A stretch of DNA of 64,000 nucleotides, from positions 2,580,001 to 2,644,000 of the forward strand of contig NZ_CP143258.1 of NCBI RefSeq assembly GCF_036320655.1, written 5' to 3'. The translations under genes were made by a program, and so were the position numbers. Within the stretch, counting starts at the first letter, position 1. The number at the start of each line of letters is the position of its first letter. This DNA comes from Porphyromonas pogonae. Lineage in GTDB: Bacteria; Bacteroidota; Bacteroidia; Bacteroidales; Porphyromonadaceae. The notes under the pieces were generated by a model. That model was not told the DNA's origin. It worked only from the letters and a program-made list of their open reading frames with translations, and did no database searches. Below, in pieces: positions 456 to 51,349 of the stretch.

Positions 456-770
456 TAAGTAACCGGAGCAAGAGAGATAAGATTTGATATAATCAATTCA
501 TATTAAAGAAACTAAACAAATTAATAATCAATAAGAACACTCCAAAATCGGCCTTGTCTTAGTTACAACACTCGGCTTATTTGTACAGAGTTCAAATAAG
601 GGAGCAAGTTTGATGGACGAGAATCACAAGAAAAGCACACCTTAATAAATAACACATCTGCAAAATGTACGATAAATAAATATTCAAATAATATAGGCGG
701 CTTATAGCTTATATTTTTAGAGAGGCAGAAGCAAATTGTAAATTGTATATGAGGATGACAATCCGATCCT

Positions 771-890
771 AATAGGTCTATCGACTTGATACGATAGGTA
801 AGCCGACTATATAGGATAAGTCGATCGTCCGTATACGATAAATCAATTGACCGTGTAGGATAGGTCAGCCGACCGTGTATGATAAGTCGG
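771..890. repeat. 22-bp tandem repeat array 1, about 5.5 units
   Basis: Units start at 771, 793, 815, 837, 859 and 881 (the last partial). The rough consensus is GATAnGTCnnnnGACCGTGTAn. Units are diverged, but the period is exactly 22 bp and each carries a small central dyad, for example TCAATTGA in the fourth and GGTC-AGCC-GACC in the fifth. The sequence is unrelated to the CTAGTTAG-type arrays at 11978 and 50964, yet the period is the same. Confidence 0.85.
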
Positions 891-1294
891 AGCACTTATC
901 GGACAGGGATATTGGGCCATTATGTATTCTTTGAGGAAATATAAGTGTGGAATAGCTGCCAGAGCTATGGAAAAAGCTCAGAAGAGGGCTCATGAGATAC
1001 AAGAGTTACCTGTGCTATGTGCGTAATAGGCAGTAGCAGACTGTAGATCGTAGCGATAACATATTAGACGGATTTGTTCTCATATTCAAAATAGGGATAA
1101 TGGGTGCAGCTCTTGTTATTTACAAAGATACAACATCGTTTACCCTTTTGTCAAGCCCCCGAAAAAGAGCGTTCAGCTCATCAGTAGGTAAAAATCGGAT
1201 AAGGCTTGAAAAAGTGACAAAATGATAGTCATAACCTCCTTTTTGCCGCAAAGAATAAACATTGAAAGAATATAGTACGGACAAAGCCTATGAT

Positions 1295-10975: not shown

Positions 10976-11680
10976 TGTTATTGTTGCAAAAATCGGCTAT
11001 TTTCACATTATTTACAAATATGAAACAAAAAATTATCCTTTTAAGGTGTATTTATACCCAAATTTGTTAATATGAAAGAATACTTATACCTAAAACACCT
11101 ATGAATAGTGTTCCTATTATTATTTAGTATGTGTTTAAGCTGATATGGAATGTTGCCCGAAGCTTCGAAATAAGGACTATAATTGGCTAAACAATTGAGA
11201 TCTGACACCAAAAGGCCCTTCCATAAAATAAGAAAGCAATTCATTTTTACAGACATTCTTGATCATAGAGATATTAAAGTGAAGAGGTTAAATACAATCC
11301 GTTTATATCAATGAATCAGATTAATATATATGTTTTATCTTTTAATACAATCAACAAAGAGAGTAACTAAGAAGGATTATTAAGGCTGATATTATCTGTA
11401 AACAAACTCCCATCCTCAGCAATGGTTGAACCCAAAGCGCAAAAAAATGCGGTGTGTATGATAATGTTGATGTTTAAGATTATCCTTCTGCCATTAATTT
11501 CAATTAGCTTGTTTCTCGTCTTAATATCTACTTCAAATTTGCAACTTAGAGGTTTCAAATAGGCCTAATTTAATTTGAGAATAGTTCTTTTATCGGATGG
11601 TTGCATCCTCATACTTGATTAAGATAAACACACGGTTAGTATATTCTTACGAGTAGAGATAAAAAATATGAGAAGAACTC
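10976..11680. other. AT-rich intergenic stretch, no supported gene
   Basis: Two short reverse-strand frames (71 and 63 codons) have no ribosome site, promoter or recognisable domain. Nothing else is evident before the module A promoter. Confidence 0.5.
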
Positions 11681-11711
11681 TTGACAAAGGGGGTAAGATA
11701 TTGTATCTTTG
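11681..11711 (+). promoter_or_regulatory. Promoter of non-coding module A
   Basis: CTCTTGACAAAGGGGG begins a TTG-N20-TATCTTTG promoter (TTG 11681-11683, TATCTTTG 11704-11711). The promoter of module B at 50653 has the same CTCTTGACAAAGGGGG block. Transcription would start near 11718. Confidence 0.75.
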
Positions 11712-11717
11712 TCATAA

Positions 11718-11956
11718 TACCAATTTACTTTTTATACCCAGCAAATGAGCGTTCACACAAATAGTACACTTCACAATAATATAGGTAAGTATTTATTTTT
11801 CCCTATACGTTGCTTGTATATGCAGCTATTAGAAGTTACATTTTGTCAAAATAGGAGTAAAAGGAAGAAATATCAAATTGTCAAAATACAGTAAACACAT
11901 CTGAAACAGATCAAAAAAGCCGTAAAGGGATATTATCATTCTCTTTACGGCTTTTT
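11718..11956 (+). ncRNA. Candidate small RNA, module A (about 239 nt)
   Basis: A strong promoter and a strong terminator bracket about 239 nt. Box 11868-11887, containing ATATCAAATTGTCA, matches 19 of 20 bases of module B and ends exactly 26 nt before the terminator in both. The stretch before the box is not conserved between the modules. A 49-codon frame (ATG 11745, stop 11894) exists here but has no counterpart in module B, which favours an RNA over a protein product. Confidence 0.6.
11913..11956 (+). terminator. Rho-independent terminator of module A
   Basis: The perfect stem AAAAAGCCGTAAAG/CTTTACGGCTTTTT has a 14-16 nt loop and a terminal T run. Confidence 0.9.
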
Positions 11957-11977
11957 AGTGGAAATATTTCTAAGAAC

Positions 11978-12109
11978 GATTTTCTTAACTTGACTTCATT
12001 ATTTTTCTAACAAGGTTGTGCTATTTTCTTAACTACGTGGTTAGGTTTTCTTAGTTAGAAAATTAGCAAAGCCTAACTAGAAAAATATATACTCCTAGTT
12101 AGAAAAATA
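11978..12109. repeat. 22-bp tandem array of module A, six units
   Basis: Units start at 11978, 12000, 12022, 12044, 12066 and 12088. All are exactly 22 bp with the core CnTA(A/G)(C/T)TAG at unit positions 7-15, flanked by TTTT on the left and AAAAATA on the right. The last two units are CCTAACTAG and CCTAGTTAG versions. The core is a dyad, so the array is six evenly spaced palindromic sites, two helical turns apart. Confidence 0.9.
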
Positions 12110-12674
12110 TTGAGAGTATCTTGATAATCTATTTTTACAATTATTAGGTAATGTAACACCACATAGGTTTTACTAAATGATCCATTATAGCCACCAAAAC
12201 AACCCTTTTGATTGTATTTAACCACCAAAAATATCTATTTAACAAATAATACTCTTACCTTTCTTGTCAGATTATACTCTCTCATCGATATAATAGACAG
12301 ATTTACGTGAGAGATAATTCATTCCTGCGAACAACATCTATTTCAGCTCTAACCTCTATATTACAGAGCCATAACCTCCTTTTCCAAAAATCCCAACGAA
12401 ACAGAACAAATTATTTTGCTTAAAGAAAGGAATTACTTTTTCAAAGAAAGTTATGTGGAGCCTCATCTGAAGGAAAACCTCATGACGTTTCTTTCAAGAA
12501 ATTGTGATAATGTTCTTTGCTATCGGAAAATCCAAACTCGATCAAGACATCAATGCACAAAAACAGTCGAGAAAACCTGATTCCGCTGAACAAGCACCAC
12601 ATTATAGAGGATATGAAAATTTAGCCCTGAGATCCGGACATTAAATCACAAAATCTCAAGGCTACAAATATTTT
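12110..12674. other. Intergenic stretch, no feature seen
   Basis: There is no coding frame, repeat or terminator between the module A array and the oxidoreductase terminator. Confidence 0.5.
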
Positions 12675-33499: not shown

Positions 33500-33587
33500 T
33501 TTGAAGTTGATCTCGTCAAAGTTTGAGATTAATCTCGTCAAATTTTGAAGTTGATATGTTCAATATTTGAAGTTGATTTCAGAGATC
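33500..33587. repeat. 22-bp tandem repeat array 2, four units
   Basis: Units start at 33500, 33522, 33544 and 33566, with the shared start TTTGAAGTTGAT (one unit TTTGAGATTAAT). Each unit is dyadic, TTTGA...TCAAA, and the second has GAGATTAATCTC as a perfect palindrome. The period equals that of the arrays at 771, 11978 and 50964, but the sequence is different. Confidence 0.85.
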
Positions 33588-50652: not shown

Positions 50653-50684
50653 TTGACAAAGGGGGGTGACTTGTTGTATATTTG
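50653..50684 (+). promoter_or_regulatory. Promoter of non-coding module B
   Basis: CTCTTGACAAAGGGGG starts a TTG-N21-TATATTTG promoter (TTG 50653-50655, TATATTTG 50677-50684), nearly identical upstream to module A. Transcription would begin near 50691, 54 bp after the U32 gene. Confidence 0.75.
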
Positions 50685-50690
50685 TATCAG

Positions 50691-50943
50691 CACAGATTAT
50701 ATTTATTATATACACATTCATTACAGCTGTTATGAGTAGTTAATCAAAAAACATACGGGGATTCAACAATAATACTATTTTAGGGTGGGAATATTCTATG
50801 CAACTTTGCACGCATCCTGATCACGTAAATACGACAAAAAGACATTCAAAGTAAAATATCAAATTGTCATAATGTAAAAATATAGTTCATACATCAATAA
50901 AAAATCCGTAAGCGAACTTTATAAGCTCGTTTACGGATTTTTT
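50691..50943 (+). ncRNA. Candidate small RNA, module B (about 253 nt)
   Basis: It has the same layout as module A: promoter, variable stretch, box 50854-50873 (19/20 identical to A), 26 nt, terminator, then six 22-bp repeats. Frames are short and not conserved between A and B. No known RNA family is recognised. Confidence 0.6.
50899..50943 (+). terminator. Rho-independent terminator of module B
   Basis: The stem AAAAATCCGTAAGCGA/TCGTTTACGGATTTTT (one wobble) has a 10-13 nt loop and a T run. Confidence 0.9.
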
Positions 50944-50963
50944 ACAATAAAGCTTAAACGGCT

Positions 50964-51095
50964 TTTATTCTTAGTTACAACATCATTTTTTTCTAACTAT
51001 AACATATTATTTTCCTAACTAGGCAATTGAGTTTTCCTAGTTGAGAAAATAACAAAACATAACTAAGAAAAAACCGTAGCCTAGTTAGAAAAATA
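50964..51095. repeat. 22-bp tandem array of module B, six units
   Basis: Units start at 50964, 50986, 51008, 51030, 51052 and 51074, each exactly 22 bp, with cores CTTAGTTAC, CTAACTA, CCTAACTAG, CCTAGTTGA, CATAACTAA and CCTAGTTAG near unit positions 7-15. Flanks are T-rich left and A-rich right. The consensus is the same as in module A, 38.9 kb away. Confidence 0.9.
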
Positions 51096-51349
51096 ATAAA
51101 TGACATTCCTCCATAAGATAAAAACCCAAACACCCCCCAAAAAAACAAAAGCACATAAAAAGCCGGCAATATCAATTATCTTAACACTGTCAATCCAAAA
51201 TCACTATCAATACGACAATCAGAAAAAATTCATTTTTAGCTGATTTATGAGTGTAAAAGAAGAGAAAATCCATCCTAAATGAAATAAATCGGAACTGTAC
51301 CCTTTGAGTTAAAAAAGCCTTTTGTAAATAAATATATTGACACAAAAGA
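51096..51349. other. Intergenic stretch, no feature seen
   Basis: AT-rich, with no frame or repeat before the carboxylase-gene terminator. Confidence 0.5.

Follow-up and report, generated by a model that had tools for sequence, protein, structure and literature searches.

Dispersed leader-array modules with 22-bp-phased dyads in Porphyromonas pogonae, candidate docking sites for a DNA-binding protein

Modules A and B, described here, are two of about 60 dispersed sites in the genome of Porphyromonas pogonae, a single contig of 2,916,423 bases (2.92 Mb), and both lie in the window, the stretch of 64,000 nucleotides that was analysed (positions 2580001-2644000). The dispersed unit consists of two parts. 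The first would be transcribed independently over about 240 nt, from a promoter of its own to an intrinsic terminator, and holds a short ORF of about 35-55 codons and two conserved boxes; the second, probably the working part of the unit, is an array of dyads. Our preferred reading, to which we give slightly less than even odds (roughly 45%), is that the arrays are cooperative docking sites for a putative dimeric DNA-binding protein, one per stretch of chromosome, with chromosome organisation or insulation as the likeliest role.

Anatomy of the modules in the window

The promoter of the TTG-N20-TATCTTTG form, the terminator and the six-unit array that a preliminary description had proposed for module A are all present where it had placed them (Table 1). 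The promoter is of the Bacteroidetes -33/-7 type, with GGGGG within its spacer, and the array starts about 19 nt past the terminator. From the predicted start to the terminator end, the unit measures 241 nt in module A and 254 nt in module B, lengths predicted from sequence alone that stay near the 239 nt first suggested, and the whole predicted transcript of module A folds with z = -5.3. The 20-nt box before the terminator is likewise found in both modules, but the distance is 28 nt in each as measured here, not 26. The six palindromic cores exist as dyads, although the exact form CTA(A/G)(C/T)TAG given for them occurs in only 2/6 units of A and 2/6 of B; a wider core, CTTAACTAAG, with T/A arms, describes the units better. 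Module B (50653-51100) indeed repeats the layout of module A, except that its box 1 is unrecognisable and it has no long first-ATG frame.

Table 1. Modules and arrays in the window, numbered from its first letter. Model R1 was built from array alignment A2 (17 copies) and model R2 from A1, an alignment of the 3' part of the leader (21 copies).
Feature	Position	Strand	Remarks
Module A promoter	11681..11711	+	TTGACA 11681-11686, TATCTTTG 11704-11711
Module A short ORF	11745..11894	+	49 codons + stop; spans box 1 and box 2
Module A box 1, TTACATTTTGTCAAAAT	11836..11852	+	alignment A1
Module A box 2, ATATCAAATTGTCAAAATAC	11870..11889	+	starts 34 nt after box 1 start
Module A intrinsic terminator	11913..11957	+	GCCGTAAAG stem and T run
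Module A class 1 array	11978..12114	+	six quasi-palindromic cores, 22-bp pitch, orientation >>><><; R1, 98.1 bits
Module B promoter	50653..50683	+	
Module B leader, 3' part	50829..50944	+	box 2 (50856-50875) and terminator; R2, 71.2 bits
Module B class 1 array	50964..51100	+	six cores, 22-bp pitch; R1, 86.9 bits
Module C	760..1154	-	module-A-type promoter at 1154, directed leftward, with a class 3 array behind it; R2 leader absent
Orphan class 4 array	33500..33577	+	22-bp unit TTTGAAGTTGATCTCGTCAAAA; no leader

The class 3 array of module C has a 22-bp unit like TATAGGATAAGTCAATCGACCG; a tandem repeat is called at 810-888, and the array extends over about 760-900 by eye. A box-like ATCATTTTGTCA lies upstream of the module C promoter. 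Outside the window, class 4 arrays (CAATCTTTGAGAATGACCTGGT type) follow R2 leaders, near 648 and 811 kb (647.7 and 810.9 kb).

Copies across the genome

Compared with its own genome by blastn (E up to 10), module A retrieves 124 pieces at about 40 places. The query itself aside, these copies are 66-94% identical to module A, mostly 66-81% over the longer matches. Model R1, which finds class 1 and class 2 arrays genome-wide, returns 114 matches (E up to 1), a number that counts many arrays twice, once per strand, with array scores of up to 105 bits (E 4.5e-30). With model R2 there are 64 matches (E up to 0.1): 47 were counted as leaders (45 at E up to 7e-6 and two weak), and the remaining 17 are weak and on the opposite strand of leaders. 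The list of 60 sites, which extends the repeated architecture first suspected in the window to the whole genome, was compiled by hand from the blastn, promoter, R1 and R2 matches; arrays split by insertion sequences were merged and leader-only sites were added. Its systematic genome-wide coverage is of class 1 and class 2 arrays and of R2 leaders, and so of class 3 and class 4 arrays only where such a leader adjoins them.

Two modules located 15 kb apart are near-identical. Between modules L051 (1893 kb) and L049 (1835 kb), the sequence from box 1 onward into the array hardly differs and the promoter-proximal parts are unlike, as if the 5' part of the gene had been exchanged at box 1. At four places (L045, L052, L128 and L135/L275, near 1740, 1960, 1499 and 2569 kb), similar insertion sequence ends of the GTCG(C/T)CCCTTAAAA type join array cores at CTAACTA, as judged by eye, as if the cores were a preferred target for those insertion sequences.

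The modules measure about 440 bp and contain no ORF long enough for a transposase or a regulator ATPase; ORFs of 302-453 aa within four of them are, by eye, separate insertion sequences. The idea of a non-autonomous MITE-like element must nevertheless be considered, in which the array would be the transposase-binding end and the minimum distance between sites would reflect target immunity, known from Mu and Tn7, the transposases of which recognise sites of 22 bp. About 60 dispersed copies with a leader seen only in this genome, together with the near-identical pair and the L051/L049 pair, agree with it. Against it, no terminal inverted repeats or target duplications were noticed by eye at module ends, the identity of the copies indicates that they are old, and the anatomy has been kept while the sequence diverged. 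With the further evidence given below, we regard this origin as somewhat unlikely, although it comes second among the readings considered.

The leader

Among the loci examined, the module promoter pattern gives 34 matches, three of which were rejected by eye and 31 kept. As a marker of the family, the promoter is of no use: TTGACAARGGG...TGTTGTATCTTTG matches 33 stretches in other genomes, no module was seen by eye among the 22 displayed, and similar promoters are present in other Bacteroidetes. The starts of box 1 (TTACATTTTGTCAAAAT) and box 2 (ATATCAAATTGTCAAAATGTA) are separated by 34 nt in almost every copy where both boxes are called, and box 2 is followed by the terminator after 26-29 nt in copies with both parts, with one exception of 54 nt. 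Changes on both sides are seen in 7/15 pairs of the terminator stem, in support of covariation. An RNA stem between box 1 and box 2 is not supported: 88.5% of its cells pair, but none of its pairs shows both-side changes.

The preliminary description had seen no conserved gene in the transcript, and this is now doubtful, because the frame opened by the first ATG remains open to box 1 in 24/35 leaders against 4.3 expected (P = 3e-16, dinucleotide-preserving shuffles; a promoter is present in 41 leaders, of which 35 are testable). The two most similar copies differ at three sites of the ORF, all three synonymous in the first-ATG frame and none of them in either of the others, and six more distant pairs include some with an excess of third-position changes and some with no difference between frames. 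The frame ends at the boxes in any of the three phases, with endings such as LHFVK, TFCQN...YQIVKM and YILSK. As copies differ in the frame in which the boxes are read, the boxes are conserved as nucleic acid and not as peptide. Comparison of five leader peptides with Pfam matched no family.

The preliminary description knew of no described family that fits. As regards RNA families, Rfam 15 returns nothing in the window at gathering score except one tRNA, and the 15 matches obtained in an E-value scan over 11600-12200 all fall far short of their gathering scores. A plasmid or phage origin of module A is not supported either: neither the 72,556 plasmid records nor the 50,697 phage records contain a match to the module.

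In 31/35 arrays tested, all chosen for having a nearby leader, 15-21 nt separate the end of the R2 match from the start of the array. The coupling is not obligatory, as about ten other arrays of this genome have no adjacent leader. The terminator located between the two parts would keep the unit's own transcription out of the array.

These features could also be read as a family of small regulatory or peptide genes, for which the array would serve only as a downstream insulator, an attenuating element or an operator. The excess of open frames, the synonymous differences of the closest pair with the third-position excess in some others, and the presence of a promoter and a terminator at a tight distance from the array are consistent with this possibility. 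Nevertheless, 11/35 leaders, module B included, have no open first-ATG frame, the phase of the frame end is variable, the peptides tested lack Pfam relatives, and arrays occur without such a leader both at those ten sites and in other genomes (148 by R2; none in the loci read). We therefore place this reading third, as an improbable one.

The array

In all 22 six-core arrays checked in P. pogonae, A and B included, every step is exactly 22 bp. Seventeen arrays align over 141 columns without internal gaps, one row ending short, and six cores are present in 23/30 of the arrays scanned (one spurious seventh core was set aside), most commonly in the orientation order >>><><. The cores are degenerate and 10 bp long, the spacers 12 bp, and the dyads 16-18 bp. 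Half-sites follow one another at alternating distances of 12 and 10 bp, close to one helical turn each; going by the sequence, this would let dimers line up on one face. In the mechanism we propose, each dyad would bind a dimer, and a pitch of about two helical turns would put the dimers on one face of the helix, allowing cooperative binding.

One leader type precedes three array sequences (classes 1, 2 and 4), and its promoter precedes a fourth (class 3). Class 2 arrays, of the TTTTAACTAAAA type, follow the leader at, for example, 129.6 and 558.6 kb, and class 3 arrays (at 760-900 in the window and near 2292 and 2884 kb) have the module promoter without an R2 leader. All four classes have a 22-bp unit despite their unlike sequences.

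Spacers 1 and 4 complement each other more within an array than between arrays, to a degree reached by 19/10000 shuffles for the 19 class 1 arrays alone and by 0/5000 when all 22 arrays are considered. The other five spacer combinations show nothing in the 19 class 1 arrays; with all 22, a few further pairs reach 18-182 of 5000, which the mixing of classes may explain. The complementarity suggests that half-arrays tend to be inverted, a tendency that would also suit the end of a MITE-like element.

An RNA fold of the array is not supported, with a consensus energy of only -3.6 kcal/mol. The lack of a stable fold, together with inner positions that vary without pairing (by eye), argues for DNA half-sites rather than RNA hairpins. 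Nor do the arrays have the make-up of a CRISPR array: CRISPR repeats are near-identical and about 25-40 bp long, and the unique spacers between them are comparable in length, and here the cores are degenerate and 10 bp long, with 12-bp spacers. The 94 neighbour proteins represent 153 Pfam families, and no cas family is among the 25 most frequent.

Distribution and conservation in relatives

The preliminary description had called for a covariance-model search of relatives, and its two halves ended differently, the array being found in relatives and the leader RNA in none of 148 other genomes. Module A as the blastn query gave no good relative in 25 other genomes of the genus, only one 27-base match (E 4e-4), and with strict filters R2 gave only matches of E 0.03-0.05, in seven of the 148 genomes. 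The coupled small gene thus appears, from these searches, to be confined to P. pogonae. In contrast, R1 matches 11 other genomes at E up to 0.01 and, although modelled on the arrays of P. pogonae, finds arrays in G027 (E down to 2.6e-11), G021, G023, G024, G025 and G001. Twenty loci in these six genomes have other cores and, by eye, a unit of 22 bp.

A pattern of two TTTC-N8-GAAA dyads separated by a gap of 3-9 matches in 43/149 genomes, 13/26 within the genus and 5/12 in the sister genus; P. pogonae itself has no exact match, as its own cores do not fit. The gap is always 6 among the matches listed for G001, G003, G004, G005, G006, G060 and G096, is 5 in the four matches of G143 (21-bp pitch), and varies in scattered single matches elsewhere. 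Fixing the gap at 6, for a 22-bp pitch, retains 28/28 of the matches found with the free gap in G006, 93/95 in G025 and 63/65 in G096. Matches of the control, the reversed pattern (AAAG-N8-CTTT pairs with a gap of 3-9), are clustered too, numbering 74 in G004, 40 in G096, 21 in G067, 17 in G066 and 16 in G016, so that arrays with other arms may exist in G004, G016, G066 and G067; with the gap fixed, the control matches drop to 1-2 in G096 and G006. A fixed pattern of three dyads was found in 10/393 evenly drawn Bacteroidales genomes, with 70 forward matches in G023 and 40 in G096. The latter genome is of another family, and the matches listed for it amount to at least 21 array loci. In 20 loci of G001, G004, G005, G006 and G096, every step is 22, although the finder allowed 21-23.

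Two array types, TTTCC-N6-GGAAA and GAAACTNNAGTTTC, coexist in G025 (2.52 Mb), where the inner dinucleotides of the half-sites seem, by eye, to be drawn from a small set. The three-dyad 22-bp pattern was also seen in eight viral stretches (IMG/VR, L263-L270).

The settings of some of these arrays revive the question of mobility. In G023 and G024 they lie inside an element with AGGGCTGACGCATTATA-like ends, and in G006 inside a repeated element (by eye); because of these MITE-like surroundings, spread by transposition is also in play, as the MITE-like reading would have it. On the other side, four arrays of G096 have no shared flanks by eye, and arrays at loci shared by G001 and G025 keep their arms. 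Eight of 11 G001 loci share some neighbour genes with a G025 array (20 G025 loci compared). Across the eight pairs, those arm positions that played no part in finding the arrays are identical in 48/48 cases, inner positions in 129/144 and spacers in 110/144 (arms against spacers, Fisher p = 4e-5). The flanks are identical at 2733/3640 positions, and the pairs L231/L255 and L233/L262 align poorly outside the array. Between P. pogonae and its relatives, one locus has two shared neighbour genes with G025 (near 1052 kb) and one with G006 (near 2036 kb), all other neighbour matches being single genes or transposases; array loci are therefore common mainly to close relatives.

In the clean G001/G025 alignments, differences in array length are of 22 or 44 bp. 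Such unit-sized indels would be expected of a functionless minisatellite expansion, with the 22-bp unit as a product of slippage, and tandem repeats are common in the genus, BrickBuilt being an example (PMC4596501). This explanation appears very improbable to us, as it would leave unexplained a single unit length for unlike sequences, within one genome and in several families, as well as the mostly fixed orientation order, the six cores of most arrays, and untargeted arm positions that are invariant while spacers drift. For the same reasons of pitch, orientation and arm conservation, the arrays are not the random AT-rich microsatellites that the preliminary description had named as one of its possible refutations; simple microsatellites have units of 1-6 bp and lack any larger fixed pitch.

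Chromosomal placement

The smallest distance between any two of the 60 sites is 10.7 kb. No gap is shorter than 10 kb (11.0 expected) and 17 gaps are of 10-20 kb (9.0 expected), giving P of about 4e-7, an analytic value that assumes uniform placement, for a test made after the gaps had been seen and on sites compiled by hand. Adding the orphan class 4 array leaves the result unchanged, and adding three weak matches as well introduces one gap of 9.7 kb (P 3e-7), between a site and a weak array match at 657.4 kb (E 0.034) that had been left out of the list. Same-type TTTCC arrays of G025 are at least 14.4 kb apart (P = 0.014), with different types as close as 1.9 kb, and one gap between same-type arrays of G006 measures 9.0 kb. 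Only in P. pogonae is the spacing strong, the gaps of the CTNNAG-type arrays of G025 and those of G001 and G006 not being informative. A minimum distance of this kind is also what target immunity of a MITE-like element would produce.

The suggestion of an origin-type site found no support, with some 60 copies and no origin-terminus bias for 53 arrays of P. pogonae (KS p = 0.33; dnaA at 132 kb), and with this even spread replication-linked placement was rejected. Of the two genomes tested for imbalance between the left and right halves, G001 shows one (2 vs 13, p = 0.007) and P. pogonae none (23 vs 30).

The genes flanking 49 arrays are convergent in 11 cases, divergent in five, tandem in 29 and undecided in four. 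In the 25 most frequent of the 153 Pfam families that the 94 neighbour proteins represent, nothing recurs except transposases (10) and common receptor domains. In other families, ten array neighbours bear no relation to one another, nine of them having a Pfam match and the tenth none. Control of one gene class is not supported, none having been found among these neighbours. Two of the 94 neighbour proteins match the Pfam family Thiol_cytolysin.

Comparison with known repeat families

The closest likeness is with BrickBuilt, a MITE of P. gingivalis with a 23-nt minisatellite, IS5-like terminal inverted repeats, a tail and promoter activity in its leader (PMC4596501). Both are dispersed and intergenic, occur in the same genus, and consist of a leader with promoter activity, predicted in the present case, followed by a tandem array of variable unit sequence. 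The present modules differ in having a 22-bp unit, usually six of them, and a terminator between leader and array. The 23-nt BrickBuilt unit, AGAYCATARTATCCTCTCRTRTG, has no match in the P. pogonae genome with up to two mismatches, and 112 forward matches in G006. Among the copies listed, inspection of the ends by eye brought no inverted repeats of the BrickBuilt type, GAGACCTT(C/T)GCA, to notice; similar ones occur in separate elements inserted in or beside modules. The module thus resembles BrickBuilt but is not BrickBuilt, failing on the repeat sequence. The same source mentions 22-nt tandem repeats in P. gingivalis W83 (PMC4596501). These have the same unit length, and the 22-bp TTTCC-N6-GGAAA arrays of G006 may correspond to them; their core is different, and the passage that mentions them neither describes them as phased dyads nor links them to other species (PMC4596501).

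Among the systems of other bacteria, the present arrays differ from REP and BIME elements, which are short intergenic palindromes in many copies, by their 22-bp pitch, 16-18-bp dyads, lack of a consensus RNA fold and coupled leader. Mu and Tn7 end sites, plasmid iterons and Noc sites are 22-bp protein-binding repeats or TTTCC...GGAAA palindromes, and their proteins are multimeric. In comparison, the arrays found here are chromosomal and number dozens, and no transposase, Rep or Noc-like partner was identified. In the literature searched, which lies outside most subscription journals, the arrays as phased dyads, their spacing and the leader gene are all undescribed, and by title nothing on Porphyromonas and nucleoid occlusion bears on the subject.

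Discussion

Unlike sequences that share a pitch, constrained arms beside free spacers, orientation rules and wide spacing together point to a multimeric DNA-binding protein, and protein binding, one of the functions first suggested for the dyads, is still their best reading. As the sites are strewn one per stretch, never less than 10.7 kb apart, chromosome organisation or domain insulation would be a likelier role than control of neighbouring genes. Chromosome organisation is accordingly our first choice, ahead of a mobile element with immunity and of a small-gene family with an accessory array. This ranking must be interpreted cautiously: the 21-bp pitch in G143, the absence of an origin-terminus pattern, the MITE-like settings, array loci common mainly to close relatives, arrays that lack an adjacent leader and a spacing that is strong in only one genome all count against docking.

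More tentatively, we propose a chromosome-organising system of Bacteroidales in which fast-evolving dimeric proteins would read 22-bp-phased dyads, the recognition sequence varying by species and within a genome while the helical phasing stays fixed. In P. pogonae, most arrays would be coupled to a tiny peptide gene and the sites mutually exclusive within about 10 kb.

To our knowledge, nucleoid organisation in Bacteroidetes is largely open. Sequence-specific sites spaced genome-wide, with a pitch kept across families, would offer a handle on the nucleoid, and the array DNA could serve as protein bait. The multicopy small ORF, for its part, would represent a new family of small proteins in sequence that annotation would call intergenic.
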